DNA of 64,000 nucleotides from Natronorubrum halophilum. Its GTDB lineage: Archaea > Halobacteriota > Halobacteria > Halobacteriales > Natrialbaceae. The notes below the pieces were generated by a model that saw nothing but the letters and a program-made list of their open reading frames with translations, was not told the DNA's origin and did not search any database. Below, one piece after another: positions 32,468 to 64,000 of the stretch (position 1 is the first letter of the stretch; every line of letters starts with the position of its first letter). The stretch spans positions 62,001-126,000 of the forward strand of contig NZ_QQTY01000006.1 in the NCBI RefSeq assembly GCF_003670115.1, read 5' to 3'. A program made the translations under genes and the position numbers.

Positions 32468-33364
32468 ATGGCCGATATTGGTATCGTCGGATTAGATACG
32501 AGTCATGCCGAGTCATTCGCCGCGGCGATCGGCGACCACTCCGGCGCGAATCTGGCTGCGGTCTGGGACGGCGGCGACGTCCGCAGCGAATCGTACGCAC
32601 GCGAGTTTTGCGAACAGCACGAGGCGACACGGTACGACAACCCGGCGGATCTGATCGGCGTCGTCGACGCGGTGATGATCCTCACTGTTAACTGGGACAC
32701 GCACCGGGAACTCGCCGTTCCGTTTCTCGCCAGCGACGTTCCCACGCTGATCGATAAACCGATCGCCGGACGGCTCGAGGACGTGAACGCGATCCGATCG
32801 GCGATCGGTGAGACACCGTTCTTCGGCGGGTCGGCGGTCCCGTACCACTCGTCGCTGCACTCGTTCGATACCGGGAACGGCACCGACGATCGGATGTTCT
32901 ACTGCGTCGGCTACAACGATTCGTTCTATTACGGCGTCCACCTCGTCGACACGCTGTGTCGACTCGTCGGCGACCGGTGGGTCTACGTTTCGCGCGCCGA
33001 CGATCCGGGACAGACGGTCGACGTCGCCTTCGACGACGGAACGCACGCGACGATCCGACTTGACAACCCGGGTGAGGAGATGCAGTTCTCCTTTTTCAGC
33101 ATCGGTGATCGAACGCGAATGCGAGACGTCGGCACCACGAGCGCGGAAATGGACAGCATGTACCGCTTGTACCTCGAGACGTTCCTCGAGGTCGTCGACG
33201 GGGACGCCGACCTGAGCGGGTACGTCCTCGATGCGGCGGAACTCCTGCTGGCGATCGACGCGACGCTGGAACACGACCGCCCGATCACGCCGAACTGTCG
33301 CGTCCTCGCCGATCACGCCGTCGACGGACGGGCATTTCTCGAGAGCTACAGCCCGTACTACTGA
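32468..33364 (+). CDS. Gfo/Idh/MocA-family oxidoreductase
   Basis: 298 residues, short for the family (usual 330-390). N-terminal Rossmann fold starts IGIVGLDTSHAESFA, not the usual GxGxxG; the Lys-Pro box near residue 98 reads LIDKPIAG, so the catalytic Lys is present. The C-terminal alpha/beta half is compact. These enzymes oxidise or reduce sugars or inositols with NAD(P); the substrate cannot be read. It faces right towards a broken copy of the same family. Confidence 0.85.
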   Translation: MADIGIVGLDTSHAESFAAAIGDHSGANLAAVWDGGDVRSESYAREFCEQHEATRYDNPADLIGVVDAVMILTVNWDTHRELAVPFLASDVPTLIDKPIAGRLEDVNAIRSAIGETPFFGGSAVPYHSSLHSFDTGNGTDDRMFYCVGYNDSFYYGVHLVDTLCRLVGDRWVYVSRADDPGQTVDVAFDDGTHATIRLDNPGEEMQFSFFSIGDRTRMRDVGTTSAEMDSMYRLYLETFLEVVDGDADLSGYVLDAAELLLAIDATLEHDRPITPNCRVLADHAVDGRAFLESYSPYY

Positions 33365-33410
33365 CCTCCTAATCCGATAGCTTATACCGGATTGCGGCGA
33401 TGATGCCGAT

Positions 33411-34364
33411 ATGTCTTCCACGCGGATCGGCGCCATCGGCGCCGGGAATCTCGGACGCGTTCACGCAAAGACGCTACAGTCGATCGGGGGAACCGATCGC
33501 GGCAGTCGCGGATATCGATCCGGACGCGCGAGACGCGTTCGCCGAGACGTTCGACGTCCCCAACACCTACGAGAACTTCCGAGCGATGCTCGAGAGTGCG
33601 GCGCTCGTCCTTGTCGTCGTTGCGGTGCCGAACGCGCTGCACGCCGACTGCGCCGTCGCCGCGCTCGAGGCGGACGTTGACGTCTTCGTCGAGAAGCCCC
33701 TCGCGCACACGCTCGAGGCCGCGCACCGAGTCGCCGACGCCGAGGTCGTCCGCCGGCGGGGGATCCCTCGCTCGGAAGCTAGTTCACCCAGAAGAACGCC
33801 GCGGGCGGCGGCGCGCTCATCGACGTCGGGGTGCATGTCCTCCACCTCGTTCTCCGGATTTTGGACTTCCCCGAGATCGCGTCTGTCTCGGCGTCGACCG
33901 GCGGCCACTTCGGGATTGACGAGGACTATACCTACCTCTCGATGTGGGGCGGCGGCCCGGTCAACGGCGGCGCGTTCGACGTCGACGACTACGCGCGGGC
34001 GTTCGTCCGGATCGCGGACGGCGCGACGATCCACGTCCACTTCGCGTGGGCGGCGAACGGCACCGCGACCGACGGGATCCGCGTCTACGGCGCTGACACG
34101 GGCGTTACGATTGACGCGACCGACGGCTTGCCGAAGGCGACGACGTACTCGGCGAGCGGCCGGGCGCTCACCGACATCGAGTTGTACCTGCCGGAGCGCG
34201 AACGGTTCGTCGAGCAGTGGTCGTACGCCGTCGATGTCGCCCGCGGCGAACGCGAATCAACCCGAAACACGCTCGAGGAGGGACTCACCGTTCAGGAACT
34301 CGTCAATGCGATCTACGAGAGCGCCGAACGAGGGCGGGAGGTCGTCCCGTCCGAATTGTCGTAG
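33411..34364 (+). pseudogene. Gfo/Idh/MocA-family oxidoreductase, broken
   Basis: The gene starts well (IGAIGAGNLGRVHAKTLQSIG), but an extra G in the G-run at 33484-33488 shifts the frame. The next piece reads PIAAVADIDPDARDAF and VFVEKPLAHTLEAAHR. Near 33760 the text ends, and 33785 onward returns to the first frame with NAAGGGALIDVGVHVLHLVL, skipping about 50-60 residues of the family. The C-terminal part to 34364 is intact. An insertion plus a deletion make it non-functional. Confidence 0.8.
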
Positions 34365-34378
34365 CGGTGTAACGGAGT

Positions 34379-35467
34379 CTACTCGCCGTCGACCGTCCCG
34401 CCGGGTCCGACGCCGGTGACGCGCTCGAGGCCGCAGTAAGTCCTCGCGGTGAACGCTGCCTCGACGGTTTCGCCGGCCCCGATCACCTTCATGGTCCCGT
34501 TCTCCCGTTGTGCGTCCGGATAGCTGCCGCTGGGGTAGGCGGTCGTCGGTTCGAGACCGATGTTGTAGTTGCGGTTAAACCACGGCGACTCGTGGTAGCC
34601 ACCGAACGGCTGCCAGTACCAGAGGCACTCGAACGGCTCGAGCGGGAAGGTCAACGCGAACCCGAGGTCGAGGTCGGGGTTGGTGAGCGCGTACCAGCCC
34701 TCGGCCATGTCGACGGCGTACGACTGGTCGTGGACCGTCGCGTCCCGCGGCGGAATCTCGCGCAGATCGACGGCGTCGCCGTCCCGACCCGGCGCGTTCG
34801 GCCACTCGAACCGCGTCTCCTCCTCGAGGCGGGCGTTCGGGAACGCGTCGCCGTACGGCGGCGTGATCCCCGTCGCCTCGGGGAGGTCGAGCCGAGCGGC
34901 GGGGGAGAGCAGCGGTTCGCCCAGGGTAACGTGTTGCTGCCAGACGTATTCGAGGGGGACCTCACCGACGTTCGTGACCGATTCGCTGATCTCGAGACGG
35001 GGGCCGTCGGCCGGGAGCGTCAGGTCGCGCTCGACGGCGAACGGGTAGCGCACGAGTTCGACGGTCAGTCGGAGCGTCACGGCCTCGTCGTCGTCGCGGA
35101 CGACCGCCGCATCCCACGGAAGCAGGGCGCTCTCGCCGTGGAGACCGTAGGCGCTGCCGTCGATTTCCATGCCGTCGCCCGCGACGGGGAGGTTGACCTG
35201 CCAGCCGCCGGGGTAGTGTTCGTTCCAGGTCGCCCTCGAGGCGGTCGGGACGTACCGCTCGCGTGGCGGCGTCCAGTTGTGGGGCGTCCGCCAGAGGACG
35301 TCGACGTCCGTTCGCTTATCGCGAAACTCGAGGATGTCCCCACCCTTTCCCGGCAGGACCATCACGCGGAGGTGCTCGTTCTCGAGGAATGCGGCCTCGA
35401 GTCCCCGATACTTGAAGTCGGTCGAAATTCGGGGGCCGGTGGCGCCGCGGAGGTCGGTCACGCGCAC
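34379..35467 (-). CDS. DUF4432 aldose-1-epimerase-like protein
   Basis: 362 residues of a galactose-mutarotase-like beta sandwich. Visible are VMVLPGKGGDILEFRDKRTD near the start, GLHGESALLPWD (the HGE box) near residue 130, VWQQHVTLGEPLLS near 190 and FECLWYWQPFGG near 300. Such proteins interconvert sugar anomers or bind them. It ends 15 bases from the broken oxidoreductase and lies 25 bases after the ceramidase-like gene, so the two minus-strand genes probably form one transcript. Confidence 0.8.
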   Translation of the reverse strand: MRVTDLRGATGPRISTDFKYRGLEAAFLENEHLRVMVLPGKGGDILEFRDKRTDVDVLWRTPHNWTPPRERYVPTASRATWNEHYPGGWQVNLPVAGDGMEIDGSAYGLHGESALLPWDAAVVRDDDEAVTLRLTVELVRYPFAVERDLTLPADGPRLEISESVTNVGEVPLEYVWQQHVTLGEPLLSPAARLDLPEATGITPPYGDAFPNARLEEETRFEWPNAPGRDGDAVDLREIPPRDATVHDQSYAVDMAEGWYALTNPDLDLGFALTFPLEPFECLWYWQPFGGYHESPWFNRNYNIGLEPTTAYPSGSYPDAQRENGTMKVIGAGETVEAAFTARTYCGLERVTGVGPGGTVDGE

Positions 35468-35492: not shown

Positions 35493-36776
35493 TCACACGT
35501 CCCTCTGCCGGGCGCCGGCGCGCTCGGCCACCGCGACCGATTTCGAGAGGATGCGCTCCTCGGTCGAGGGCGCGTATGTCCCCTCCTCGAAAGACTGCCA
35601 CGACTCGTAGCCGCCTTCCGCGAGGATCCGAACCGTCGGCAGGTAGCCGGTGTTGTTCGCGTACGCCGCCACCCAGAGGGGCGACGCCAGCGTCTCCTTC
35701 AGTCGCAGGGCGAACTCCGCGACGACTTCGCCCGACAGCGAGAGGATCGTGAGGTCGGTGCCGAACCCAATCGCCTGGATTGGATACGGGCGGTGGTCGG
35801 TGACCTGCCGCCCCTCTCGAGGCGTCCCATCCTTCATCGGCGTCTCGATCTCGAGAGGGATTTCGTCTGCGACCAGTTTCAGGGGGCCGCGAACCGGCCG
35901 TGGTTCCGTAACGAGCGCGCGTTCGACCGCCGTCACCGCCGTCTGCGCATGGCGGTGGACGAGGTCGCGGGTTCCCTGCGGGTACGCCTTCTGATCGCCG
36001 GCGCAGCCGATGACGAACACGGCCGTTGCGTCCTCGAATGTCTCCTCTAACTCCGCCATCGCGTACCCCGGCCAGTCGCCGTTGACTTCGTTACAGTGGG
36101 CCATCCCGACCGTCGGGTGGCAGGCGTAGCCGAACAGGACGGCCTTCGTCGCACCGTCCGCCGTCTCGGCGGTCAACACCGGCAGGTCGTGGTCGACTGG
36201 CCCGTCCGGGTGCGGATCGAAGCCGATGCCGTCCTCGGTCGGCCGCCGTCGGTTCATCGCGATGGCGCACGACGCGGAATACTGCGACAGCGATGCGGGC
36301 TCGAGGTCGTCGAGCGCGTCGCCGATGACCTCGAGCAGCACACCGTCGACGTACTCGCGGTAGGCGGCGACAAGGTCTTCGTCGCGGTCGATCCCCTTGT
36401 CGAGCCCCTTGGCGTGGACGTCGTAGTCCGGGCCGTAGTGGGTGTGACTCGGCGTGATGAACAGCGCCTCGGGTTCGAGCTCCCACCGCTTCGCACACTC
36501 CTCTTCGAGGTGGGCGCGCTGGGTCTCGAACACGAACAGCAGTTCGAACGAGAGGACGACGAGTTGTCGGCCCGTGCGGTCCTCGAGCGCGACGGCGCGT
36601 GCGTAGATGTCGTGCTCGACGCCCTCCATCGTCCCCTCGCGGGCGCCGAATCCGATGAGTCGATGGGACTCGTCGGGATCCGGAGTGATCGGTGCCTTCG
36701 CCGTGCCTACCCGCCACTCGGCGGTCACGTCTCCCTCGGTCTCGCGGCCGTGTTGCCAGTCTCGATTGGATCCCAT
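35493..36776 (-). CDS. neutral/alkaline ceramidase-family amidohydrolase
   Basis: 427 residues, containing only the N-terminal catalytic domain of the family and no signal peptide. Motifs: DIYARAVALEDRTGRQLVVL, SHTHYGPDYDVH (zinc ligand His), YACHPTVGMAHCNEVNGDWP (second His and its partner) and VFVIGCAGDQKAYPQG. Known members hydrolyse the amide bond of ceramide outside the cell. Here the enzyme is cytoplasmic and shorter, so it more likely cleaves an N-acyl or similar amide of an imported compound. It pairs with the paralogue at 38381. Confidence 0.82.
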   Translation of the reverse strand: MGSNRDWQHGRETEGDVTAEWRVGTAKAPITPDPDESHRLIGFGAREGTMEGVEHDIYARAVALEDRTGRQLVVLSFELLFVFETQRAHLEEECAKRWELEPEALFITPSHTHYGPDYDVHAKGLDKGIDRDEDLVAAYREYVDGVLLEVIGDALDDLEPASLSQYSASCAIAMNRRRPTEDGIGFDPHPDGPVDHDLPVLTAETADGATKAVLFGYACHPTVGMAHCNEVNGDWPGYAMAELEETFEDATAVFVIGCAGDQKAYPQGTRDLVHRHAQTAVTAVERALVTEPRPVRGPLKLVADEIPLEIETPMKDGTPREGRQVTDHRPYPIQAIGFGTDLTILSLSGEVVAEFALRLKETLASPLWVAAYANNTGYLPTVRILAEGGYESWQSFEEGTYAPSTEERILSKSVAVAERAGARQRDV

Positions 36777-36844: not shown

Positions 36845-38218
36845 CTACTCGCTCGACTCCTCGTCACCGGTTCGCTCCCGCAGCGTCGCGCCGACGGGGT
36901 CGCCCTCGAGTCGCTGCTCGACCTTGCCGGCCTCGAGCGCGTCCCGGACGACGGTGAGACACTCGTGGTAGACGTCCAGCACGATCTCGACGTCCTCGTC
37001 GGTGTGGCTGTAGGTGGGAATGTGGGCGCCGGTGTAGAGCACACCCCGTCTGTGGGCCTCCTGCATGAACAGGCTCCGCAGGAGTTGCCCCGCGGAGTCG
37101 TCCCCCGTCGACGACCCGATCCGCACGTCGTCGCTGAAGTCGATCGCGAACCGCGGCGGGAAACCGTTCGCTCGGGTTACGTCCCCCAGCTCGAGTTCGG
37201 CGGCGAGTTCGTTGTAGCCGTTCATGAGCGTCTCCCCCTGCCGGAAGATGTGTCCGTGGACGTCCTCCTCGCGCTGGACGGTGATCGTCGCCTTGGCGGC
37301 CGCGAGCGAGACCGCGTCGCCGGCGTAGGTCATCGAGTAGAAGAAATCGTCGTCGTCGATGGTCTCCATCACCTCCCGCGTGCCGGCCAGCGCTGATATC
37401 GGGAACCCGTTGGCCATCGCCTTCGCAAAACACGCCAGGTCGGGCGTGACGCCGAAGTACTCCTGGGCGCCACCGATCGCGAACCGGAACCCGGTCAGCA
37501 CCTCGTCGAACACCAGCACCGCCCCCTCGCGATCGGCGAGGTCGCGGAGGTCCTCGAGGAAACCGTCTTCGGACTCCTCTAGGTTCACTGGTGTCGTCAC
37601 GATCGCGGCGACGTCGTCGGGGTGGTCCTCGAAGATCCGCTCGACGCTCTCGAGGTCGTTGTACGCGAACGACTCGGTGTAGTCGCCGACGACGTCGGGG
37701 ATGCCGCGGTTGAGGTCCTCGTTCGCCCCCATCCAGACGTCGGGCCAGCCGTGGTAGCCCTGAGTCGCAATCACGTTGCGGCCGGTGTGCGCCCGGGCGA
37801 CCTTCGCGGCGAGCGCCGTCACGTCGTTGCCACTCTTCGCGAACTTCACCATCTCGGCGCAGGGGACGACCTCGGTGAACAGCTCCGCGACCTCCACATG
37901 CAACGGGTGCTCCATCGTGTACATCGTGCCGTCCTCGAGTTGCCTCGAGACGGCCTCGGTCACGGCAGGATAGTTGTGTCCGAGCAGTACCGGCCCGAGC
38001 GCGGCGTTGCAGTCGACGTACTCGTTGCCGTCCGGATCCCATAGCCGGCTTCCCTGTGCGCGTTCGATGTGGGTCGGCGAGACACCCTGGACGAACTGCG
38101 ACGGCCGCTTGCTGTTCGTCTGGGAACACCCCGGTACAACGTTCGCTGCTCGTTCGATCAGTTCTCGCGATCGACGTGTCGATCGACTACTCGAGGCTAA
38201 CGGTGAACCGCTGGACAT
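36845..38218 (-). CDS. class III PLP aminotransferase (glutamate-1-semialdehyde aminomutase-like)
   Basis: 457 residues. The PLP Lys is in CFAKAMANGFPISAL (about residue 266) and the Asp that contacts the pyridine N is in VLVFDEVLTG (about 238). Further family boxes are SGNDVTALAAKVARAHTGR and GYHGWPD. I chose the ATG at 38218 (MSSG), since the upstream extension has no homology. In a catabolic setting this enzyme may move an amino group off an amino-sugar-derived keto acid. It stands between two ceramidase-like genes. Confidence 0.88.
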   Translation of the reverse strand: MSSGSPLASSSRSTRRSRELIERAANVVPGCSQTNSKRPSQFVQGVSPTHIERAQGSRLWDPDGNEYVDCNAALGPVLLGHNYPAVTEAVSRQLEDGTMYTMEHPLHVEVAELFTEVVPCAEMVKFAKSGNDVTALAAKVARAHTGRNVIATQGYHGWPDVWMGANEDLNRGIPDVVGDYTESFAYNDLESVERIFEDHPDDVAAIVTTPVNLEESEDGFLEDLRDLADREGAVLVFDEVLTGFRFAIGGAQEYFGVTPDLACFAKAMANGFPISALAGTREVMETIDDDDFFYSMTYAGDAVSLAAAKATITVQREEDVHGHIFRQGETLMNGYNELAAELELGDVTRANGFPPRFAIDFSDDVRIGSSTGDDSAGQLLRSLFMQEAHRRGVLYTGAHIPTYSHTDEDVEIVLDVYHECLTVVRDALEAGKVEQRLEGDPVGATLRERTGDEESSE

Positions 38219-38341
38219 TAGGACGCAACTCACTCTCACCGCTGATAAGTTCTTCGCTAACGTCCCTCATGGACGGATGACCGTCGGCGAACACTCGGTC
38301 TCACGATAAAGTTAAGCGATGGGCAGACCAGAGTGAGTCGC

Positions 38342-38380: not shown

Positions 38381-39787
38381 ATGCTGCCTCACGAAGCGCG
38401 ACTGCGCGCGGGAACCGCTACGGCGGACGTCACGCCGGACGACCCCGTCGTGATGAGCGGCTACGGCGCCCGCGACGGCCGCTCGACGGGCGTCAACGAT
38501 CCGCTGTTCGCGTCGGCGCTCGTCCTCGACGACGGACACACGACGGTCGGCGTCGCCTCGGTCGACGTCCTGAACGTCTCCCGGGAACTCACGCGGGCGG
38601 TGACCGACTCGCTGGCCGCCGAGGGCGTCGACCTCGAGACGGTCGTCCTCGCGGCGACCCACACCCACGCCGGACCCTACGTTCCGGCGCGAGCGCTCGA
38701 CGTCAGCCCGCCGCTGCGAGCGACCGAGGACGTCTCCGAGGTCGTCGCGTCCCTCGAGCGCGGGATCGTCAACATATTTGATCGCGCGTACGAGCGCGTA
38801 GAGCCGGCACGAATCCGCGTCGGTCACGCGTCGGAGCGCGAGACGCTGGTGAACCGCCGCGCCGGCGGCGGCGTGAGCGGGAACGTTCGCATGCCGGCCG
38901 GCCCGATCGATCCACGGGTGACGGCGCTGCTCGTCGAGACCGAGTCGGGGGCTGAGACCGTCGTCTACAACGTCGCGTGCCATCCGGTGTGTACGACGGC
39001 CGAGGAGACGCTGCTGTCGGCCGACTGGCCCAGCGCCGCGCGAGCGCGGATCGAAGCCGAGCGCGACGGTGCGACGGTCCTCTTTTGCAACGGCGCGGCC
39101 GGGGACATCAATCCGGCCGGTCTGGACGAGCACCGCTCGGGGTCGGCCGTCTACGACTGCATGGACCGCGTCGGCTCGCGGATCGGCAACGCGGTGTGCC
39201 GGGCGCTCGAGGACGCTGAATCGGGCGACGCCTCGACGCTGCGCCGGGCGCCGATCTGCGTCGACGAGACCGACCTTCGACTGCCCGTCAAGCGGACGCC
39301 GGCTCTCGAGACGATCCGGGCGCGGATCGACGACCTCGACGCGCAACTCACGACCCTCGAACGGGCCGGCGACGAGGTCGGTCACGAGAACGTGTGGCGG
39401 GACCGCCAGTACGCAGAAGAGCTGCTGGCGATCGCCCGGTGGGACGCGCGATTCCTCCCGGCGAAACTCACCTTCGTTGAGATCGGTCCTATCGGCCTGC
39501 TGGGGATGCCCGGCGAGATGCATGCGCGCCACGGGCTCCGCCTCAGGGAGCGGGCGCGCGTCCCGTCGCTCCTCCCAGTGGGCTACGCCAACGGCTACGT
39601 CGGCTACGTGCCGACGCTCGACGATCTCGAGAACGGCGGTTACGAGGTTCGAACGATGAAGATCGCGCCCGACGCGATCGTCGAGTTCCGCGACTGTGCG
39701 CTCGAACTCGTCGGCGGACTCGAGCCGCACCGACCTGGAACGGTGCCGAACTCCGAACGACAAAACAGCTATAGGGATCGTGCGTGA
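38381..39787 (+). CDS. neutral/alkaline ceramidase-family amidohydrolase, second copy
   Basis: 468 residues, no signal peptide. Motifs match the first copy: RAGTATADVTPDDPVVMSGY, the zinc box ATHTHAGPYVP, NVACHPVCTTAEETLLSADW, and NGAAGDINPAG. It shares about the same length and domain order with the gene at 35493, but sequence differs enough that both were probably kept for different substrates. The start is fixed by the adjacent mini-ORF stop and by GGAGG 7 bases upstream. It is divergent from the aminotransferase. Confidence 0.82.
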   Translation: MLPHEARLRAGTATADVTPDDPVVMSGYGARDGRSTGVNDPLFASALVLDDGHTTVGVASVDVLNVSRELTRAVTDSLAAEGVDLETVVLAATHTHAGPYVPARALDVSPPLRATEDVSEVVASLERGIVNIFDRAYERVEPARIRVGHASERETLVNRRAGGGVSGNVRMPAGPIDPRVTALLVETESGAETVVYNVACHPVCTTAEETLLSADWPSAARARIEAERDGATVLFCNGAAGDINPAGLDEHRSGSAVYDCMDRVGSRIGNAVCRALEDAESGDASTLRRAPICVDETDLRLPVKRTPALETIRARIDDLDAQLTTLERAGDEVGHENVWRDRQYAEELLAIARWDARFLPAKLTFVEIGPIGLLGMPGEMHARHGLRLRERARVPSLLPVGYANGYVGYVPTLDDLENGGYEVRTMKIAPDAIVEFRDCALELVGGLEPHRPGTVPNSERQNSYRDRA

Positions 39788-39913: not shown

Positions 39914-40459
39914 ATGACATCGGACGACTCGGGCGAAACGACGGATTCGGAGCCGCTCGTCACCGCGGCGGGCGTGCGAGCCGCCGCCGACCGACTCGAC
40001 GACAGCCGGTCGCTCAGCCGAGGGCGACGACGCAGAGTTCGTCCACGCCTTCGACGATCCGGGGATCGTCGCGGGCCAAGGGACGATCGCGCTCGAGATC
40101 GGCAGCGGACTGATCGGCGATCACGTCGATATCGAGGGCGAAACCGCGGTGGCGGTGCTCTCCGGGGGCAACCTCGACCTGACGATGCTCGACACCCTGC
40201 TGACCTACGAACTCACCGCGCGGAGCCAGCACATCTGACTCGAGGTGCGCATCGACGACGGACCGGAAAGATGGCGGAACTTTCGGGGATCATCGCGGGT
40301 CGCGGGGACAACATCCAGACGGTCGAACACGTGCGATCGGACGACCGGCTTGACGTCGGCGAGGCGCTCCTGACGTTCCTCGACGAGACCAGCGGCGGGG
40401 CCACGCCGAGGCGGTCCGCGAGGCGATCGCTGACCACGAGTACGCCGTACAGCGAGTGA
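39914..40459 (+). pseudogene. threonine ammonia-lyase, internally deleted
   Basis: Fragments in two frames line up with a PLP threonine/serine dehydratase. The N-terminus is VTAAGVRAAADRLDDSRSLS; the mid-late part is AFDDPGIVAGQGTIALEIGS and ETAVAVLSGGNLDLTML. A C-terminal ACT-like segment reads KMAELSGIIAGRGDNIQTVE. About 130 central residues, including the PLP Lys, are absent, and a TGA and frameshifts split the rest. The active enzyme would be fed by RidA, and a RidA gene is present at 52552. Confidence 0.72.
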
Positions 40460-40470
40460 ACTAGGACACT

Positions 40471-41475
40471 ATGACAACGAATCCAACCATCGTCTTCACC
40501 GACGTCGAAACGGTAACGATCGAAGAACACCCGGTTCCCGAGCCGGACCCCGACGAAGTCGTTATTCGGACCGACCGCACGCTAGTGAGTACTGGAACGG
40601 AACTCACTATCCTCTCGGGCGACGTCCCGCCGGGGTCCGCCTGGGACGACCACATCGAGTACCCGTTCACGCCCGGCTACAACAACGTGGGAACGGTCAC
40701 GGCCGTCGGCGAGTCGGTCGACGATCTCGCCGAGGGGGACCGCGTCGCCACGTACGGCTCGCACGCGAAATACGTCGTTGCGAGCGCCGAGGGATGCCGA
40801 CCGATCCCGGATGGCGTGAGCGACGACGAGGCGACGTTCTTCACCATTGCCGAGATCGTGATGAACGGCATTCGCCGGAGCGACCTCGTGTGGGGCGAGA
40901 CCGCGGTCGTCTACGGACTCGGCCTGCTGGGACAGCTCACAGCCCAACTTTGTCACGCCGCCGGCGCCCGACCCGTGGTTGCGGCCGACGTCGCGGACTT
41001 GAGGCTCGGCTACCTGCCCGAGCGGCCGGGACTCACGGCTGCGAACCCGATCGACGACGACGTTCCAGCGGTCGTCCGAGTGGCCGCCGGCGATCGGCTA
41101 GCCGACGTTGTCTTCGAGGTGACCGGCAACCCAGATGTGATCACCGACGAACTCGAGTCGCTCCGAGAGCAGGGCCGGTTCGTCGTCCTCAGCAGCCCGC
41201 GCGGGGAGACCGCGTTCGACTTCCATGACCACTGCAACTCGCCGAGTTACACCCTTGTCGGGGCGCACAACTCGTCGCACCCGTCGGTTGCGACGCCGGC
41301 GAACCCGTGGACGCAGCACCGACACGCCGAACTGTTCTTCAACCTCGTCGCCGAGGGTACCCTCGAGGTCGCCTCGCTCGTCAGCCACCGTGAGTCGTAC
41401 GCGGCGGCTCCGGGGCTGTACGACGACCTGCTCGCCGATCGAACCGAGGCGATGGGCGTCGTCCTCGAATGGTAG
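40471..41475 (+). CDS. zinc-independent MDR dehydrogenase
   Basis: 334 residues of medium-chain dehydrogenase/reductase. The Rossmann box is VVYGLGLLGQLTAQLCHAAG near residue 150. The catalytic-zinc Cys is missing (STGTELT where zinc enzymes have CGTD), the GHE box reads GYNNVG, and no four-Cys structural zinc loop is present, so it probably works without metal. Candidates are sugar or polyol oxidation with NAD(P). The start ATG lies 11 bases after the dehydratase relic. It converges with the oxidoreductase pair at 41492-43461. Confidence 0.75.
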   Translation: MTTNPTIVFTDVETVTIEEHPVPEPDPDEVVIRTDRTLVSTGTELTILSGDVPPGSAWDDHIEYPFTPGYNNVGTVTAVGESVDDLAEGDRVATYGSHAKYVVASAEGCRPIPDGVSDDEATFFTIAEIVMNGIRRSDLVWGETAVVYGLGLLGQLTAQLCHAAGARPVVAADVADLRLGYLPERPGLTAANPIDDDVPAVVRVAAGDRLADVVFEVTGNPDVITDELESLREQGRFVVLSSPRGETAFDFHDHCNSPSYTLVGAHNSSHPSVATPANPWTQHRHAELFFNLVAEGTLEVASLVSHRESYAAAPGLYDDLLADRTEAMGVVLEW

Positions 41476-44179: not shown

Positions 44180-44345
44180 GCCTCTACTTCCCCAATCCAA
44201 CCTCCTATACGTTGTGGTTTGTATCCTGATCGCTACGCTGTGTAATATACGTCGAACGCGGTGGTCCTCGTCCGTTGCCCGCGAAAGGCGACGTCTCGAG
44301 TCGACCGGCAAAACGATTATGGGGGTCCGAATATATGATACGAGT

Positions 44346-52425: not shown

Positions 52426-52551
52426 GGCAGATACGCTCGCTCCGGTCACATATAGGTTCTTCCGCCGTCGGTTCGACCGTCGGCCACTCGAGTGTGATCG
52501 AAGTCACCGGTAGAATTAACCGACCCGAGACGAATCCGTCTACCTGCGACC

Positions 52552-56337: not shown

Positions 56338-57570
56338 TCACTCGAGTAGTTCGTCGACGTTCGCCCGAATCTTGCGAACGGCTTCGGCCACCGAGCGAAT
56401 CCCCGCTTCGTCGGCGAGCAGCAGTTTGTGGCTGTAGGTGACGTTGGTCCGGCAGATTTCTTCCGTACCGGGGAGGTGGAGGTTGGGATAGTCCGGAACC
56501 TCGGTTCCCCGCGGGAGGAAGCGAGCCACCTCGTTGCGGTAGAACGCCGGCTGTCTGTAGAGGGGCAGTTGATACCCCTCGCTCACCGGAACGCTCTCCG
56601 CGACGAGCGCCTCGATGAACCGATCCCGGTGGAGACCGCCGAACGCGTCGGCGTCGTACCGGAAATTCTCGATGCAGTAGCCGCGAGCCGTGATTCGGTC
56701 GTCTCGCGGCTTCGTCGCGATGCCGTCGATCGACTCGAGTTCGGCGAGCAGGACCTCCTCGTTCCGTTCGCGGATCCGGTTCTCGTCGTCGAGTTTCTCG
56801 AGTTGAGCCAGCGCCAGCGCGGCCTGCAGTTCCGAGAGGCGGCGGTTCGACGCCAGGAAGTGGTGGTAGTAGTCGACCGTCCCCTGCCGGCGGCCGATGT
56901 TGGCCATCGTGCGGGCGCGGTCGGCCAACACCGTGTCGTCGGTCGTCACGATGCCGCCCTCGCCGCTGGGCAGGGACTTCGACTCCTGGAAGGAGAACGT
57001 GCCGAAGTCGCCGAACGTGCCGACCTTTTCACCTCGCCATTCCGACCCCTGCGCGTGGGCCGCGTCCTCGATCAGGAACAGGTCGTGCTCCTCGATAATG
57101 GGGAGGAGTCGATCCATATCCATCGTGTAGCCGGCGAAGTGGACGCCGACGACGCCGACCGTCCGGTCCGTGATCACTTCCTCGAGGTGGTCCAGATCGA
57201 TATTGTACGTCTCGGGGTCGGTGTCGACGAACCGCGGCACCGCGCCGACGCAGGGAACCGCGCTCGCGCTGGCGATGAACGAGTACGACGGGACGACGAC
57301 CTCGTCGCCCGGTTGGACGCCGCAGGCCCGCAACGCGAGTTCGATCGCGGTCGTGCCGTTGCTCACGGCGATCGCGGTCTCCACGTCGTGGTACGCGGCG
57401 AACGCCTCCTCGAGTCGATCGCAGAACTCGCCGCCGGTGGTCCGACACCAGCGTCCGCTCTCGAGTGACTCCGTTACGTACTGCCTGCTCGTCTCGGTCA
57501 GTCGCGGCCACTCGGGGAGTTTCAGTGCCTCCGCTGCTGCCGGTCCGCCGTTGATGGCTAACTCTGGCAT
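56338..57570 (-). CDS. DegT/DnrJ/EryC1/StrS-family PLP aminotransferase
   Basis: 410 residues from ATG 57570. The PLP Lys is in FSFQESKSLPSGEGG (about residue 198) and the Asp in FLIEDAAHAQG. Other boxes are SNGTTAIELALRACGVQPGD and SYSFIASASAVP. Typical members add an amino group to keto-sugars (as in dideoxysugar synthesis), but the reverse, removing an amino group from an amino sugar, fits this catabolic setting. It lies 76 bases after the isomerase-like gene on the same strand. Confidence 0.9.
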   Translation of the reverse strand: MPELAINGGPAAAEALKLPEWPRLTETSRQYVTESLESGRWCRTTGGEFCDRLEEAFAAYHDVETAIAVSNGTTAIELALRACGVQPGDEVVVPSYSFIASASAVPCVGAVPRFVDTDPETYNIDLDHLEEVITDRTVGVVGVHFAGYTMDMDRLLPIIEEHDLFLIEDAAHAQGSEWRGEKVGTFGDFGTFSFQESKSLPSGEGGIVTTDDTVLADRARTMANIGRRQGTVDYYHHFLASNRRLSELQAALALAQLEKLDDENRIRERNEEVLLAELESIDGIATKPRDDRITARGYCIENFRYDADAFGGLHRDRFIEALVAESVPVSEGYQLPLYRQPAFYRNEVARFLPRGTEVPDYPNLHLPGTEEICRTNVTYSHKLLLADEAGIRSVAEAVRKIRANVDELLE

Positions 57571-57646
57571 GCTCTTGCTCGAGTGCTTCGCGTCCGAGAC
57601 GATAAGTCTGTGCGTACTTGTCTCACAGTCGCTACCGATTAGCAAC

Positions 57647-58423
57647 TCACGACGAGTCGACTACGCGGTCGCGAACGTCGGCGAACACGGCGCTCCCGTA
57701 CTCGAGCGATTTCAGTCCGTCGTCGGTGCGGCCGTTCTCGCAGACAAACCACTCGGTGCCGGCGGCCGCGGTGGCGGACGTGCAGGCCTCGATGTTGACG
57801 GCGCCCTTCCCGACGTCGGCGTGCAGGGCGGCCGGATCCGACGGGATAGAGTCGGTGAGGTGGACGACAGGGGCCTGACCGTCGACGGCCTCGAGGAGAG
57901 CGAGCGGATCGTAGCCGGCGTGTTTCGCGAGGCCGACGTCGGGTTCGAACCCGAACCGGCCGTCCGCGCGGTCGACGAACCGTTCGAAGGCGACCCTGCC
58001 ATCGACGTCCGCGAACTCGAATGTGTGGTTGTGGTAGAGCAGGTCAATGTCGTACTCGGCGAGTTCGGCCGCCGCGTCGCCGATGCGGTCGGCCGCGGAC
58101 TCGATTCCCTCGACGGTCGCGAACGCCTCTGGCTCGTAGGTGGGGACGACGAGTGTCGAACAACCGACGGCCAGGCAGTGTCCGACGAGGTCGTCGAGTT
58201 CCGTCTCGAGCCGGTCGATGTCGACGTGGGCGCCGGCGACCGCGAGCCCGGCGTCCTCGAGCGCGTCCCGCGTCCGACTCACGGCACCGTCGTAGAACTC
58301 GTCGAAGTGCGCGTCGTAGAACTCGACGCCCTCGAACTCGGTCTCGCCGACGCGGGCGATCAGCTCCGGCGTCGACTCGTCGACGTCTTTCAGCGTGAAC
58401 AGCTGGATGGCAGTCCGTAACAC
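57647..58423 (-). CDS. sugar isomerase/epimerase-like TIM barrel (AP endonuclease family 2)
   Basis: 258 residues. GVEFYDAHFDEFYDG, YHNHTFEFADVDGR (the zinc His-Asn-His box) and GFEPDVGLAKHAG match the xylose-isomerase-like barrel family used on inositols and rare sugars. It is followed by the DegT-family gene, and both face left from the sulfatase. Substrate unknown. Confidence 0.85.
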   Translation of the reverse strand: MLRTAIQLFTLKDVDESTPELIARVGETEFEGVEFYDAHFDEFYDGAVSRTRDALEDAGLAVAGAHVDIDRLETELDDLVGHCLAVGCSTLVVPTYEPEAFATVEGIESAADRIGDAAAELAEYDIDLLYHNHTFEFADVDGRVAFERFVDRADGRFGFEPDVGLAKHAGYDPLALLEAVDGQAPVVHLTDSIPSDPAALHADVGKGAVNIEACTSATAAAGTEWFVCENGRTDDGLKSLEYGSAVFADVRDRVVDSS

Positions 58424-58492: not shown

Positions 58493-59965
58493 TTAGCTGC
58501 TCGAGGCACAGTCGTCCGAATCGCCGACGTCGTCCGAGCCGGCCGTCGTCGTGGTGAGCGCCCCGTCCTCGACGAACCCCTCGGGACGATTCGAGAGTCG
58601 GTCGACCATTGCGGTTCGTCCCCGCTTAAGGACGTCCGCGTACGCCTCGTCGTCGGTGCGATCGTACAGTTCGTTGGGGTCCTCCTCGAGGTCGAACAGC
58701 AACTCCTCGCCGGTCGCCGGATTCCAGACGAACTTGTGTCGGCCGTCGACGACGTACTGACAGCCATTCTCCGGGTCGTAGCTCCCGGCGGCGTGCTCGC
58801 CGTGGTACCACTCCCGCCAGTCGTCCCGGTCGGGGTCGCGAACCAACTCGAGCAGGTCGCTCCCCTCGACAGTCTCGGGGACGGGGACGTCCGCGACCGA
58901 CAGCAGCGTCGGCATGACGTCCTCGAGGCCGACCGGCCGGTCGACGAGCTGTTTTCGCGGCAGGTCCATCGACTCGGGGAGTCGCAGCACCATCGGAACC
59001 CGCGCAGAGCCCTCGTAGGCGTAGGTCTTCCGCCAGAGGTAGTGGTCGCCGAGCATCTCGCCGTGATCCGAGATGAACATGACGAACGTGTTCTCGAGTT
59101 CGCCGATCATCTGCAACTTGTCGAAGACGCGTTTCAACTGGTGGTCGATGTGCGTGATGAGGCCGTAGTAGGCGGCTCGCGCGCGACGAACGATCGTCGG
59201 CGGCAGGTCGGCGACCCAGGCGTCGACAGGCGGATAGTCGGGGATTTTCTCGCCGTAGACGTCGTCGGCCCACTCGCCGATGGACGGCGCCGGGATCTCG
59301 CGGTCGACGTACATGTCCCAGTACGCTTGGGGTGGATCGAACGGGGTGTGCGGGCGGACGTACGAGAGGTTGAGGAAGAACGGCCGCATCTCGTCGCGCT
59401 GGTCGAGGAAGTCGAGCGCGCGGTCGGTCGTCCAGTTCGTCGGGTGGTAGTGTTCGTCGACGTGCCACGGTCGGGGGTCCCACGAGTTCCGGCCGAGGCC
59501 GTGGGAGAGTTCGTCGAACAGGCCGTCGCTCTCCTGCTCGAGCCAGCGCGTGTAGTCGTCGTCGGGGTGGGCAAAGAGCGCCTCATGCTGGTCCAGGCTC
59601 TCGAAGCCGACGTGGCTGCGGATCGGGATAGAGTGAATCTTTCCGGTGAGTTTCGTCTGGTAGCCCGCGTCGCGGAGCACGCTCGGCAGCGTGTCGTCGA
59701 AGTCCCACGGCGTCGTCACCCAGCCCGGCGCCCCGTTCGTCGACGGCGTCTGGCCCGTCAACAGCGACCGGCGAGCCGGGATGCACGACGGTGCGGGGGT
59801 GTAGGCGCGGGTGAACAGCGCGCCGTCCTCGACGAAGCTGTCGATGTTCGGCGTGTGGACGAGCGGGCGGTCGTCGTCGTCGGTCGGCGAGTCCGGGTCC
59901 ACACCGAGGCAGTCGCCGCGGTGCTGGTCGGTCATGATGAACAGGATGTTCGGTCGACTCGGCAT
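58493..59965 (-). CDS. cytoplasmic sulfatase
   Basis: 490 residues from ATG 59965. Calcium-site start LFIMTDQHRGD, the formylglycine signature CIPARRSLLTG (Cys61 in C-x-P-x-R context), SYVRPHTPFDPP and FISDHGEMLGDH are all present. There is no signal peptide, so it desulfates an imported compound. A formylglycine-generating enzyme is not seen in this window. It starts a leftward run with the isomerase and aminotransferase. Confidence 0.92.
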   Translation of the reverse strand: MPSRPNILFIMTDQHRGDCLGVDPDSPTDDDDRPLVHTPNIDSFVEDGALFTRAYTPAPSCIPARRSLLTGQTPSTNGAPGWVTTPWDFDDTLPSVLRDAGYQTKLTGKIHSIPIRSHVGFESLDQHEALFAHPDDDYTRWLEQESDGLFDELSHGLGRNSWDPRPWHVDEHYHPTNWTTDRALDFLDQRDEMRPFFLNLSYVRPHTPFDPPQAYWDMYVDREIPAPSIGEWADDVYGEKIPDYPPVDAWVADLPPTIVRRARAAYYGLITHIDHQLKRVFDKLQMIGELENTFVMFISDHGEMLGDHYLWRKTYAYEGSARVPMVLRLPESMDLPRKQLVDRPVGLEDVMPTLLSVADVPVPETVEGSDLLELVRDPDRDDWREWYHGEHAAGSYDPENGCQYVVDGRHKFVWNPATGEELLFDLEEDPNELYDRTDDEAYADVLKRGRTAMVDRLSNRPEGFVEDGALTTTTAGSDDVGDSDDCASSS

Positions 59966-60141
59966 ACCCATACCTTCCGTTCCGATCACAAATGTCTATC
60001 CCTTCCCCGACTCTCGAGGCACACGTATCGGCGCCGCAGACGGTCTCTTTCCCGAGAAAACCGGTCCGCCATCGAGCTTATAACGAGAGTACATGTGTAG
60101 TTACAGTTTTATCGGAGTACCCAGTAGTGGTGATTGATAGC

Positions 60142-61590
60142 ATGCCTCGAGAATCACGCGACAGTGAGAGTGAACGATACCGAACCCGAACGAGTGAAGC
60201 GAATGCAGATGCGAGTCCCGTGGGGCGAAACCTGCCAACGCGGCGGTCCGTCCTGCGCACCGCTGCCGCCGGGACGGCGGTCGTCGGGCTTGGACTCGGC
60301 GTAACCGGATCGGTCGCCGCGAGCGACGAGTACGGCACCGTCGTGAACCTCGTCGACGACTTCGGCGCCGACCCGACCGGTGAGGAACCGATCGACGACG
60401 TCCTCGACGAGGCGGTGCAAAACGACACGAAGGTGATCTTCCCCGAGGGCGAGTACTACCTTGAGGAGGGCGGCTTCCACCGAAACGGCGCTGGCACCGC
60501 GGCCTCGTTCGATCCGGATGGAACGCCCGAGGAGTACGTGTTCGACGTCGCACTCGTCGGCCAGGGGGACGTGACGCTTCGGCCGGCAGAGGGCGTGGAG
60601 ACGTTCGTCCTCGCCCTCTGGGGTGACGGCGTTCGCGTCGAGAACTTCCGGATTGATCAGACCGCCGCGGAGACGAACGTCGGGATGTCGTACCTGGTCC
60701 AGAACGACCTGGTGGTGCGCGACATCGTCTACGAAGGGCTCGCGGACACGTGGGGGACGGTCAAGATCGGTCCGGGCATCGTCGAACCGGACGGCACCGG
60801 CCTGATCGAGAACTTCCACGTACCGGACGGCTCGATGGGGTACGGCCGCGAGACGGGCGCCTGGGTGTTCCCCGACCACGCGGGTGACCTGCTGTTCAAG
60901 CGGTGCTCGTTCAAGGGGTTGGCCGACAACGCGATCTACGCCTCCGGTCCCGGCGGGAACGGGAACGGCTCGGTCGGCGTCGAGAACTGCTACTTCGAGA
61001 ACAACAACGTCTCCTCGATCCGTCTCGGGACGCCCGGCAGCTACGCGAAGAACTGCACCGTCGTCCTCGACGGCTACATCCCCGAGTACGACACCTGGGG
61101 AGCGGTCACCGCCCGCGCGGTGTGGCTGTGGAGCGAGTTCGGGGGCGAACTCAGGAACATCGACGTGCGCTGCAACCACGAGAGCAGCTACGGCGTCCTC
61201 GATTACGCCGGACACGACGGTGCGGTAGCGATGCGCAACTGCCGGTTCGAGATGAACGCCGACGGCAACCAGGCCGTCGACCTCACCAACGGGACGGCCG
61301 ACATCGCGATGAAGAACACGAGCATCACCGGCGACGCCAGCGGGGGGACGGCGCTGGAACTCACCGACAGCGCCGTCGCGATCCAGAATCTCTGTCTGGC
61401 ACAGTCGGGCGCCGACCGCGACGGTGTCACGCTCGAGAACGCGACCGGAACGATCCGGAACGCCAGGATCGACGTCACCGGCGAGCAGGTCGTGACCGAC
61501 GGCGACAGCGACGTCGCGGTGACGAACCTGAGCGAGCACGGCGACTGTCCGCCGGCGCAGGCCCGGCACCCGCTCCAAAACCGGTTCTGA
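60142..61590 (+). CDS. secreted right-handed beta-helix (pectate-lyase-like) protein
   Basis: 482 residues. A twin-arginine signal LPTRRSVLRTAAAGTAVVGL, RR at 34-35, is followed by VAAS for cleavage, so it is exported. The rest is a beta-helix: repeated strand turns such as VENFRIDQTAAETN, LFKRCSFKGLADNAIYASG, VENCYFENNNVSSIRL and MRNCRFEMNADGNQAVDL. A long-polymer (pectin- or alginate-like) lyase or binding role is usual for this fold. It would act outside the cell, before the importer. ATG 60142 chosen; a GTTTTATCGG box precedes. Confidence 0.78.
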   Translation: MPRESRDSESERYRTRTSEANADASPVGRNLPTRRSVLRTAAAGTAVVGLGLGVTGSVAASDEYGTVVNLVDDFGADPTGEEPIDDVLDEAVQNDTKVIFPEGEYYLEEGGFHRNGAGTAASFDPDGTPEEYVFDVALVGQGDVTLRPAEGVETFVLALWGDGVRVENFRIDQTAAETNVGMSYLVQNDLVVRDIVYEGLADTWGTVKIGPGIVEPDGTGLIENFHVPDGSMGYGRETGAWVFPDHAGDLLFKRCSFKGLADNAIYASGPGGNGNGSVGVENCYFENNNVSSIRLGTPGSYAKNCTVVLDGYIPEYDTWGAVTARAVWLWSEFGGELRNIDVRCNHESSYGVLDYAGHDGAVAMRNCRFEMNADGNQAVDLTNGTADIAMKNTSITGDASGGTALELTDSAVAIQNLCLAQSGADRDGVTLENATGTIRNARIDVTGEQVVTDGDSDVAVTNLSEHGDCPPAQARHPLQNRF

Positions 61591-61697
61591 TCGACCGCAC
61601 GCGACCGAACACCGACGGCGACATCGTTCCCGTCTCCGTTCCCATCTTCGTCCCGTCGACCGGTCGATTTTATGCTCGTCGCCTCGAGTGAGTGGGT

Positions 61698-62723
61698 ATG
61701 GCCACGGTACTGACTATCGGCGGCGCCCGGTTCATGGGTCGATTCACCGTCCGCGAGTTTCTCGAGCGCGGTGACGACGTGACGCTGTTCACCCGCGGGA
61801 ACAGCGAAATTCCGTTCGCCGAATCCGACGTCGACCACGTCGAGGGCGACCGACGGAACGAGGCGGACCTGCGGGCGGCGTACGACGCCGTCGATCCCGA
61901 CGTCGTCGTCGACTTCGCGGGCTTTCACCCCGCCGACGTCCGCGCGGCCGTCGATATCTTCGCCGACGTCGATGCCTACCTGTTCGTCTCGAGTACGAGC
62001 GCCTATCGGCTCTCGACGGCCGTTCCGATCCGGGAGGACGAGACGCCCCTCGAGTCGTGTACGCCCGAGCAGGCGACCGACGATTCGTGGGAGAGCTACG
62101 GCGCCCGGAAGGCCGAGTGCGATCGAATCCTCTTCGAGGCGGCCGACGACGGGGTGAACGCCATTAGCGTCCGCCCGACCGCGATATACGGGCCGCACGA
62201 TCCGACGCAGCGACTCGACTACTGGATCGACCGCGTGCGGCGCTACGACCGGATCGTCGTTCCGGGCGACGAGTACTGGATGCCGATGCACCTCGGGTAC
62301 GCGGAAGACGCCGCTCGAGCGATCACCGTCCTCGCCGAGGAGGGGACGCCGGGCGAAGCGTACAACGTCGCGAACCGTGAGCAGTGCCAGTTCGATCGAC
62401 TGATCGAACACATTGCGACGGCGCTCGAGACGTCCGTGACGATCGTTCGGCCCTCGCCTCGGGAGTTGGCGACGATCGACCTCTTCCCCAAGAACTTCAG
62501 CCTCTGTCGCCCGTTCCCGTACGTTGTCTCGACCGAGCGGCTCGCCGCGCTGGGCTGGAAGTCGACGCCGCTCGAGGCGGGAATCGAGACCGCCGTCGAG
62601 CACCACCTCGAGACCGAACCCGACGGGAGCCGGCACGGACCCAGTCGGGAGACGGAGGAGCGACTCCTCGAACTGTGTGCCCACGGCGTCCGTTCGATCG
62701 ACGGGCGCGGACGTGATTCGTGA
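61698..62723 (+). CDS. NAD-dependent epimerase/reductase (extended SDR)
   Basis: 341 residues. NAD loop TIGGARFMGRFTVREFLERG, then VSSTSAYR and YGARKAECDRIL holding the catalytic Tyr-x-x-x-Lys. RPTAIYGPHDPTQR and MPMHLGYAEDAARAI follow. Resembles UDP-glucose 4-epimerase-type and NDP-sugar reductases. It faces the PIG-L deacetylase gene tail to tail, with 32 bases between. Confidence 0.9.
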   Translation: MATVLTIGGARFMGRFTVREFLERGDDVTLFTRGNSEIPFAESDVDHVEGDRRNEADLRAAYDAVDPDVVVDFAGFHPADVRAAVDIFADVDAYLFVSSTSAYRLSTAVPIREDETPLESCTPEQATDDSWESYGARKAECDRILFEAADDGVNAISVRPTAIYGPHDPTQRLDYWIDRVRRYDRIVVPGDEYWMPMHLGYAEDAARAITVLAEEGTPGEAYNVANREQCQFDRLIEHIATALETSVTIVRPSPRELATIDLFPKNFSLCRPFPYVVSTERLAALGWKSTPLEAGIETAVEHHLETEPDGSRHGPSRETEERLLELCAHGVRSIDGRGRDS

Positions 62724-62755
62724 TCGCGCCGTAGACGGCGTTCAACGCGTCGCGA

Positions 62756-63598
62756 TCACTCGATCGGGAAGAGGATATCTCGGTTCTCGTCGGTGAGTTG
62801 GCCGCCGTACTCGCAGTGTTCGAAGGCCTCGGCATACCGAACCTCCGATCCGCGCTCCTCGCCATAGCGCTCGACGAGCGCGTCGCGGTGGCGGTCGGCG
62901 ACGGCCGCGAATCCGGGGAGTCGGTCCTCGGCCAGCCACTCGCGGCGTTCGTCGTCGTCTTCCGGCACTTCTTCGAGTTTTCCGACGTTGTATGGGAGCC
63001 ACTCGTACATCTGGGAGTCGTGTTCGTGGATCGCGTCGAGTTTCGTCTCGACCACGTCGTCGATGTCGACGACGACGTCGGGATTGAACGGATACGGTTT
63101 CTGGAAGTCGTCGTGGAGGTAGCAGATGACGGGGTTGTAGGTGATGTGGGGCGTGTTCGTGCAGATGTTCGGGACCGTAACCATGTATGCAGAGTCTTGT
63201 ACCAGGTCGGAAGTGTACCGGTGGTCGGGATGGTAGTCGTTCGGTCGGTGCGTTAGTATCAGATCGGCCTTGAACTCGCGGATGAGCCGAATCACCTTGT
63301 TTCGGTTCTCGATGCTCGGCCTGAGTTCGCCCTCGTGGGTGTCGAGGAACGTGTACTCGACGCCGAGGATCTCGGCGGCTCTCCGTCCCTCGGCCTGACG
63401 CCTGCGGGTGAGTTCGATCCCGCCGATCTCGTGGTGGCCGGCCTCGCCGTTCGTCATCGAGACGAAGCGGACGTTGTGGCCGAGGTCGGCGTACTTGCGC
63501 GCGGTTCCGCCGAAGGTGATCTCGCAGTCGTCGATGTGGGCGCCGATGACGAGCACGTTGAGCGGTCCGTCGGGTACCCTAACGTCAAATGTTGGCAT
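62756..63598 (-). CDS. PIG-L family N-acetyl deacetylase, second copy
   Basis: 280 residues from ATG 63598. Zinc motif in NVLVIGAHIDDCEITFGG (AHIDD, where most have AHPDD) and THRPNDYHPDHRYTSDL near residue 115. Longer than the first copy and with a Tyr- and Pro-rich middle. The upstream open frame from 63685 lacks homology. Expected to deacetylate or otherwise cleave an N-acyl sugar. Confidence 0.88.
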   Translation of the reverse strand: MPTFDVRVPDGPLNVLVIGAHIDDCEITFGGTARKYADLGHNVRFVSMTNGEAGHHEIGGIELTRRRQAEGRRAAEILGVEYTFLDTHEGELRPSIENRNKVIRLIREFKADLILTHRPNDYHPDHRYTSDLVQDSAYMVTVPNICTNTPHITYNPVICYLHDDFQKPYPFNPDVVVDIDDVVETKLDAIHEHDSQMYEWLPYNVGKLEEVPEDDDERREWLAEDRLPGFAAVADRHRDALVERYGEERGSEVRYAEAFEHCEYGGQLTDENRDILFPIE

Positions 63599-63736
63599 GG
63601 GTCGTCGTCCACTCTTTTTTCCGAATCGGTCATAGGTGTTTCGCCCTGACGACGCAGCGTGGGTTCGTCGAGACGGTGACGACACCGGAACCGGCGTCCC
63701 GAATCGCCCGGGTTCAGCGAACCAAGAGGTGGCCGT

Positions 63737-64000
63737 TCACTCGAGGTACGATCGGATGCGCTCGACGACGTAGTCGGCCTCGTCGTCCGTGAGACACATC
63801 GGGTTCACGGTGAACGCAGACTCGTGGAGGTTGTCGGGACCAACGAAGATCCGGGGGTTCTCCTTGCGGAGCTGCCCGACGAGGGTCGTCGCGTCGATTC
63901 CCGCCGTCTCCGGATCGATGCGGACGAACACCTCCGGCGCGACGGCCGTCTTTTCCCCCTCGGTGACGGTGATAGACAGGCCGGACTCCTCGCGCAGTTC
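63737..64000 (-). CDS. C-terminal end of a PLP-dependent (SelA-like) enzyme, truncated by the window
   Basis: 88 codons in frame up to the window edge; the start is beyond it. TVTEGEKTAVAPEVFVRID, LRKENPRIFVGPDNLH and FTVNPMCLTDDEADYVVERI match the C-terminus of aminotransferase class V / SelA-like enzymes, including D-glucosaminate-phosphate ammonia-lyase types, common in haloarchaea. In this setting it could break down an amino-sugar acid, but the catalytic part is not visible. Confidence 0.65.
   Translation of the reverse strand, partial: ELREESGLSITVTEGEKTAVAPEVFVRIDPETAGIDATTLVGQLRKENPRIFVGPDNLHESAFTVNPMCLTDDEADYVVERIRSYLE

Follow-up and report, generated by a model that had tools for sequence, protein, structure and literature searches.

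A plasmid-borne gene island of Natronorubrum halophilum predicted to serve the breakdown of an N-acylated amino-sugar compound

Introduction

The breakdown of amino sugars by haloarchaea is poorly known beyond a predicted use of chitin. The closest described system is a module predicted in Natrarchaeobius for N-acetylglucosamine (GlcNAc) or chitin, in which a deacetylase, a homologue of glucosaminate-6-phosphate lyase, a RutC/RidA protein and an IclR regulator lie beside chitinases (PMC12343721). Here we describe an island of some 30 genes in Natronorubrum halophilum that starts in a 64,000-nucleotide stretch of contig NZ_QQTY01000006.1 (positions 62,001 to 126,000, hereafter the window) and continues past its right end. 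A previous reading of the letters of the window (the original prediction) had proposed a catabolic island for an N-acylated, perhaps sulfated amino-sugar conjugate. With a probability of about 0.6 we consider the island a horizontally spread, plasmid-borne single regulon directed at an N-acylated and probably sulfated amino-sugar compound.

Results and Discussion

Extent and conservation of the island

In window coordinates the island starts at ~32.4 kb and ends at ~72.4 kb, a length of approximately 40 kb. The contig (C6, in which positions equal window positions plus 62,000) is 175,117 bp long and its ends match exactly over 9,623 bp, so that the plasmid is circular and 165,494 bp in length. 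The G+C content is 60-69% between 32 and ~72 kb, ~41-58% in the first 32 kb of the window and 52-58% beyond the island. Pfam/NCBIfam scans recovered all the parts listed in the original prediction, i.e., two ceramidase-type amidases, two PIG-L deacetylases, a sulfatase, a propeller, three intact Gfo/Idh/MocA enzymes, RidA, DUF4432, a TIM barrel, a beta-helix protein and an importer. The three pyridoxal phosphate (PLP) enzymes are a class III aminotransferase (36845), a DegT protein (56338) and a SelA-like protein (63737-65035) that runs past the window end, to which the remnant of a PALP/ACT dehydratase can be added. The 31-kb island delimited at 32468-64000 is real, but its end was misplaced.

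Tblastn searches with 33 island proteins located the same gene set within 45-72 kb in eight other genomes. Relatives therefore keep the genes together, in shuffled order, and not in separate places, in agreement with the single island originally proposed. The carriers include Natronosalvus hydrolyticus, Halovivax sp. KZCA124, Natrononativus amylolyticus and Halosolutus gelatinilyticus; in Halomontanus rarus the set is also plasmid-borne, and most of it is present in genomes of two further haloarchaeal families, one being Haladaptatus sp. DYF46. Of the 125 genomes of the taxonomic family, 18 have genes of the ceramidase family PF04734, and sulfatase orthologues (at least 75% identical) occur in this genome and 11 others, all 12 among the 18 PF04734 carriers. 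The hypergeometric probability of this co-occurrence by chance, ~1e-12, ignores relatedness and hence overstates the case. The sample includes nine further genomes of this genus, in none of which PF04734 genes or sulfatase orthologues were found, and the island was therefore probably gained by transfer. The island-type SelA (at least 79%) is confined to full clusters, seven of them. A second, related cluster type, in which SelA adjoins FAH, has a more distant CerA (~40%) and the common members FAH, SelA, RidA, MDR2, GfoE and PIG-L 2. The set can be considered as ~25 conserved and apparently co-regulated gene families that were co-inherited over many genera, and several of them, such as the short ceramidase-type amidases, DUF4432 and the ASST-type propeller, have no known role. 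That the island is one catabolic unit is well supported. Present in just 2/8 clusters, the epimerase and the GATase1-like gene of PF07090 were not counted among the core members.

The copy of the island described here appears somewhat reduced, since a Gfo/Idh copy (~33379-34355) and the PALP/ACT dehydratase (39914-40461) are broken and several conserved members of the relatives' clusters are missing: an AAC(3)-family protein, a second TIM barrel and a further sulfatase (each in 7/8 relatives), as well as a flavin reductase found in five genomes. The AAC(3)-family protein is an N-acetyltransferase (L064:4166-4984 and relatives).

A candidate operator

When the intergenic DNA of nine clusters was screened for palindromes, CGTTT-N9-AAACG stood out with 15 copies in 8 genomes; in shuffled DNA no palindrome exceeded 3 copies. 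The longer form CGTTTAC-N5-GTAAACG, allowing up to 2 mismatches, occurs 28 times in the clusters (520 kb), 6 times in their flanks (358 kb) and twice in other loci (479 kb), an enrichment counted on the same clusters used for its discovery. Sixty permuted palindromes used as control averaged 1.1 sites and never exceeded 7, versus these 28, while the contrast between clusters and flanks alone is modest (p = 0.005). The whole 4.67-Mb genome includes just two sites with at most 1 mismatch, located 0.4 and 0.85 kb upstream of GfoA. Two palindromes also lie upstream of GfoA in Halomontanus, which was not part of the discovery set. In several genomes palindromes precede FAH, IclR, GfoD, MDR1 or CerB as well, so that the putative operator is common to several cluster promoters, which argues against a response of the genes to separate inducers. 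The palindromes are often paired, flanking ATTACA-N10-TGTAAT, and such a pair lies near FAH in this island. The IclR gene often has a palindrome immediately upstream, and IclR is likely to regulate the island at the CGTTTAC-N5-GTAAACG sites. The putative operator would provide a cheap reporter handle on the inducer, and hence on the substrate. Other operator-like palindromes are found outside the window at about 68026 and 68879-69051.

The amino-sugar core

The PIG-L deacetylases, the SelA-like ammonia-lyase and RidA indicate that an N-acylated amino sugar is the likely substrate. The SelA-like enzyme has the SelA fold of a PLP ammonia-lyase related to DgaE. Its best solved match is 7lc0, a glucosaminate-6-phosphate ammonia-lyase (8e-48), of which it is a fold-level homologue along nearly the whole chain with the PLP lysine region aligned (Lys248); the identity is low, however, and the island substrate may be unphosphorylated. 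Both PIG-L deacetylases keep their zinc motifs. In 20 SelA loci outside islands RidA was found nearby in 10, PIG-L in 9 and IclR in 8, i.e., the CE14/PIG-L, ammonia-lyase, RutC/RidA and IclR grouping of the Natrarchaeobius module, and part of the island core matches that module, which had already been predicted for chitin-using natronoarchaea (PMC12343721). On the other hand, the island lacks a chitinase and has in addition the sulfatase, the ceramidase-type amidases, DegT, DUF4432, the ASST-type propeller, a flavin monooxygenase and FAH. No GH18 or GH20 chitinase was found in the island or in the scanned conserved members of the relatives' clusters. The earlier statement that the full list of parts is not employed by any haloarchaeal pathway known so far holds for the whole set but not for this sub-module. 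The presence of SelA beside RidA, PIG-L and IclR outside the island, and beside FAH in the second cluster type, leads us to read the core as deacetylation, oxidation, ammonia-lyase action with RidA, further oxidation and FAH-type cleavage, a combination that suggests an N-acetylated amino sugar. In the Natrarchaeobius study RutC was labelled a repressor (PMC12343721).

Sulfatase, amidases and beta-helix protein

The nearest solved structure to the island sulfatase is 7oz8, that of BT1918 (3.7e-98 over 473 residues), and the sulfatase signature CIPAR is present in all 12 close orthologues, those of the window and eleven relatives. BT1918, an S1_46 enzyme, removes the 3-O-sulfate from GlcNAc and requires the N-acetyl group, which it holds in a Tyr/Tyr/Arg pocket with an additional Asn contact (PMC10154612). 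The likeness lies at the level of the overall sequence, and unlike BT1918 the island enzyme belongs to a haloarchaeal host in which no formylglycine-generating enzyme (FGE) was found. As the score of another structure, 9koq, is close behind (1.9e-92), 3-O-sulfo-GlcNAc is only a lead. It is plausible that the substrate is sulfated. No paper on a sulfatase together with a sulfated polysaccharide in haloarchaea was found in the literature.

By sequence and by predicted fold, the best PDB match of CerB, which is conserved in 7/8 clusters, is neutral ceramidase. CerA and CerB share with the neutral ceramidases (PDB 2zws, 4wgk) the fold and the zinc-ligand motifs (HTH, ACH, GE and Tyr), invariant in the CerA/CerB alignments, but they have ~430-470 amino acids instead of ~650-690 and their island neighbours are sugar enzymes. 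The neutral-ceramidase equivalog NF041649 gave a score of 57.9 for CerB, its cut-off being 1200, and none for CerA, and no beta-oxidation or lipid genes were seen in the island. In these surroundings sugar N-acyl groups are likelier targets of CerA and CerB than ceramide. A literature search returned no paper on a ceramidase in haloarchaea. Planctomycetes and Verrucomicrobia frequently encode short ceramidase-type proteins as well (L103-L177), with none of the haloarchaeal neighbours. These bacterial relatives of CerA (35-40% identity) were considered as a substrate clue and discarded, having almost nothing else in common with the island within 10 kb.

The beta-helix protein carries a twin-arginine leader with invariant arginines. 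Foldseek comparisons of its model revealed mannuronan epimerases and polysaccharide lyases, including one from Vibrio, with TM scores of 0.2-0.4 that reflect the general fold only.

A predicted catabolic route

The family-5 ABC importer is complete (44735-51389, plus strand), and a route can be outlined in which we infer the substrate of every step. The exported beta-helix protein might act outside the cell on a uronate-containing glycan, by trimming or epimerisation, which is a tentative step, and the importer would bring in a small product. Sulfate and N-acyl groups would then be stripped by the sulfatase and by the zinc amidases CerA and CerB, enzymes whose families are clear, after which the PIG-L/CE14-type deacetylases would free the amino group. 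Gfo/Idh and MDR dehydrogenases may convert the sugar to an amino-sugar acid, from which the SelA-like ammonia-lyase would generate a 2-keto-3-deoxy acid. The RutC/RidA family is better read as enamine/imine hydrolases, and RidA would hydrolyse the enamine or imine. A second oxidation followed by the FAH-family hydrolase would yield pyruvate and a short hydroxy acid. Other amino groups could be disposed of by DegT, the class III aminotransferase, for which no PDB relative was found at 1e-60, and, in the relatives, the dehydratase.

Compared with what had been proposed for the window, the amino-sugar theme is retained through PIG-L, the SelA-like lyase and RidA, but sulfation is less supported, the maturation enzyme being missing. 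Extracellular cutting by the beta-helix protein is likewise less supported, since its likeness to enzymes stays at the fold level. The last steps, vague in the original prediction, can be given as the SelA-like lyase and FAH, which suggest a real carbon route encoded mostly outside the window.

Weighing the evidence

A number of observations weigh against a single amino-sugar regulon. No characterised orthologue fixes any substrate. FGE (PF03781) was found neither in this genome nor in 8 of the 11 carriers searched, and no anaerobic maturase (TIGR03942) scored above cut-off; either another maturase exists or the sulfatase works otherwise, which is a puzzle in its own right. Neither a glycoside hydrolase nor a recognised lyase was detected in the island or in the scanned conserved members of the relatives' clusters, the unlabelled genes of which were only sampled. 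The binding protein of the importer is conserved in just 4/8 clusters. The best solved relatives of FAH are HpcE-type decarboxylase/isomerases and not sugar-acid hydrolases, a match to 2,4-diketo-3-deoxyrhamnonate hydrolase ranking lower, and for this reason the FAH step is the weakest of the core route; no paper on diketo-3-deoxy sugar acids in haloarchaea was found. The palindrome was not found in the clusters of the two other families, and the use of the discovery clusters for counting also tells against its enrichment. Finally, DegT, PIG-L and the AAC(3)-like protein of the relatives resemble enzymes of aminocyclitol antibiotics equally well.

The last point leads to an alternative substrate, an aminocyclitol or aminoglycoside-like compound, in whose breakdown DegT would deaminate in reverse, the Gfo/MDR enzymes and TIM barrels would act as inositol or inosose dehydrogenases and isomerase, PIG-L would work as on GlcNAc-inositol, and FAH or a TIM barrel would open a diketo ring. 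The best solved matches of DegT are indeed 2-deoxy-scyllo-inosose (DOI) aminotransferases, the top models of GfoC/D and MDR2 are IolG and IolM/Tdh, the TIM barrel weakly matches IolE, and the AAC(3)-family protein is present in 7/8 relatives' clusters. We nevertheless regard this substrate as unlikely because none of these matches reaches its family cut-off, the glucosaminate-lyase type of the SelA-like enzyme suits an open-chain amino-sugar acid, and the sulfatases and the mutarotase-like DUF4432 suit sugars. No paper on the catabolism of 2-deoxystreptamine was found. With the biosynthesis of 2-deoxystreptamine aminoglycosides the locus shares the DOI-aminotransferase-type DegT, the PIG-L deacetylases and, in relatives, the AAC(3)-like protein, but the scanned island genes include no DOI synthase or glycosyltransferase and do include an importer and a lyase. 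More generally, a cluster that makes or modifies an amino-sugar or aminocyclitol surface glycan or metabolite could be expected to contain DegT, an epimerase, an ASST-type propeller, an AAC(3)-like protein and a flippase-like protein, all common in biosynthesis loci, the last found in the clusters of three relatives. Such a function is highly improbable in view of the complete importer, IclR, the ammonia-lyase, RidA, FAH and the many amide hydrolases, and no glycosyltransferase, nucleotidyltransferase or dehydroquinate-synthase-like gene was recognised.

A natural polymer that carries the groups the island seems able to remove, i.e., sulfate, acetate, amide-linked glycine and an amino-sugar acid, is the halococcal wall, a sulfated heteropolysaccharide with acetate, glucosamine, galactosamine, gulosaminuronic acid and N-glycyl-glucosaminyl bridges (PMC4187196). 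In fold comparisons the beta-helix protein falls among mannuronan epimerases and the Vibrio lyase, but the scores are low and there is no glycoside hydrolase for the neutral sugars, and we give this polymer hardly any credence as the substrate. The island might also be no unit at all, several independent catabolic operons having merely piled up in a plasmid hot spot. Members on both strands, an order that differs between genomes, the optional importer, epimerase and GATase1-like genes, and the second cluster type with only part of the set would all fit. This is quite unlikely since the content recurs across several genera and at least three families, the sulfatase and SelA orthologues of the island type are confined to clusters, and one operator motif is found at both island ends. 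Under the preferred single regulon for an amino-sugar compound, the sugar bonds might be opened oxidatively by Gfo/Idh enzymes. A doubtful extension is a plasmid-spread route free of glycoside hydrolases that would combine oxidative cleavage by Gfo/Idh enzymes and TIM barrels, sugar amidases of the ceramidase fold and a sulfatase served by no known FGE.

Features of the island and its plasmid

Table 1. Genes and sites of the island and its right border, in window coordinates, with identities from Pfam/NCBIfam scans. The last column gives the number of full clusters, out of eight, in which the feature is conserved.
Feature	Position	Strand	Family, motif or remark	Clusters
Operator-like palindrome	31615..31633		1 mismatch to CGTTTAC-N5-GTAAACG	
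Operator-like palindrome	32069..32087		1 mismatch	
Operator-like palindrome	32286..32304		2 mismatches; upstream of GfoA	
GfoA, Gfo/Idh/MocA oxidoreductase	32468..33364	+	PF01408; first island gene	conserved
GfoB, Gfo/Idh/MocA pseudogene	33379..34355	+	Split over two frames, internal loss	
DUF4432, aldose 1-epimerase-like	34379..35467	-	PF14486	8/8
CerA, short ceramidase-type zinc amidase	35493..36776	-	PF04734; zinc-ligand motifs intact	8/8
Class III (GSA-aminotransferase-like) PLP enzyme	36845..38239	-	PF00202	7/8
CerB, second short ceramidase-type amidase	38381..39787	+	PF04734	
PALP/ACT serine-threonine-type dehydratase remnant	39914..40461	+	Fragments; intact in 6/8 relatives	
MDR1, zinc-type dehydrogenase	40471..41475	+	PF00107/PF08240	8/8
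GfoC oxidoreductase	41492..42487	-	PF01408/PF22725	7/8
GfoD oxidoreductase	42484..43461	-	PF01408/PF22725	
Yip1-domain membrane protein	43550..44530	-	PF04893; adjoins importer	
Family 5 solute-binding lipoprotein	44735..46618	+	PF00496	4/8 (type kept)
Two Opp-type permeases	46893-47900, 47878-48909	+	PF00528	
Two Opp-type ATPases (OppD/F)	48916-49983, 49983-51389	+	PF00005/PF08352	7/8
PIG-L/CE14-type deacetylase 1	51727..52449	-	PF02585; AHPDD, HPDH	6/8
RidA/RutC-family protein	52552..52926	+	PF01042	7/8
MDR2, threonine/scyllo-inosose dehydrogenase-like MDR	52920..53987	+	Start codon approximate	7/8
GATase1-like protein, optional	53988..54734	+	PF07090	2/8
ASST-type propeller	54842..55930	+	PF05935	8/8
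DegT/DnrJ aminotransferase	56338..57645	-	Nearest solved: DOI aminotransferases	7/8
AP_endonuc_2 TIM barrel	57647..58423	-	PF01261	8/8
S1-type sulfatase	58493..59989	-	C-x-P-x-R (Cys69)	8/8
Right-handed beta-helix protein	59992..61590	+	Twin-arginine leader	
SDR epimerase/dehydratase, optional	61692..62723	+	PF01370	2/8
PIG-L deacetylase 2	62756..63685	-	PF02585; AHIDD, HPDH	
SelA-like PLP enzyme	63737..65035	-	Crosses window end	7/8
Luciferase-like (flavin) monooxygenase, LLM	65836-66816	+	Outside window	6/8
GfoE, Gfo/Idh enzyme	66819-67907	+	Outside window	8/8
IclR regulator	67968-68861	+	Outside window	7/8
FAH-family hydrolase	69185-69919	+	Outside window	6/8
Amidohydrolase	70691-72394	-	Outside window	8/8
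Integrase-family gene	74748-75998 (L003:10748-11998)		~2.4 kb past last island gene	

The integrase-family gene past the right border may hint at the means by which the island moved. On the left side, the open reading frames at 31141 and 31666 were judged non-coding, being basic and of low G+C content at third codon positions (GC3). Three Orc1/Cdc6-type genes of the plasmid lie in the left half of the window. Beside one of them there are three identical copies of the 19-bp site CGTTTTCGAGTAGTAAATG, at C6 positions 73761, 73917 and 74002 (window 11761, 11917 and 12002), which are possibly repeats of the plasmid replication origin.

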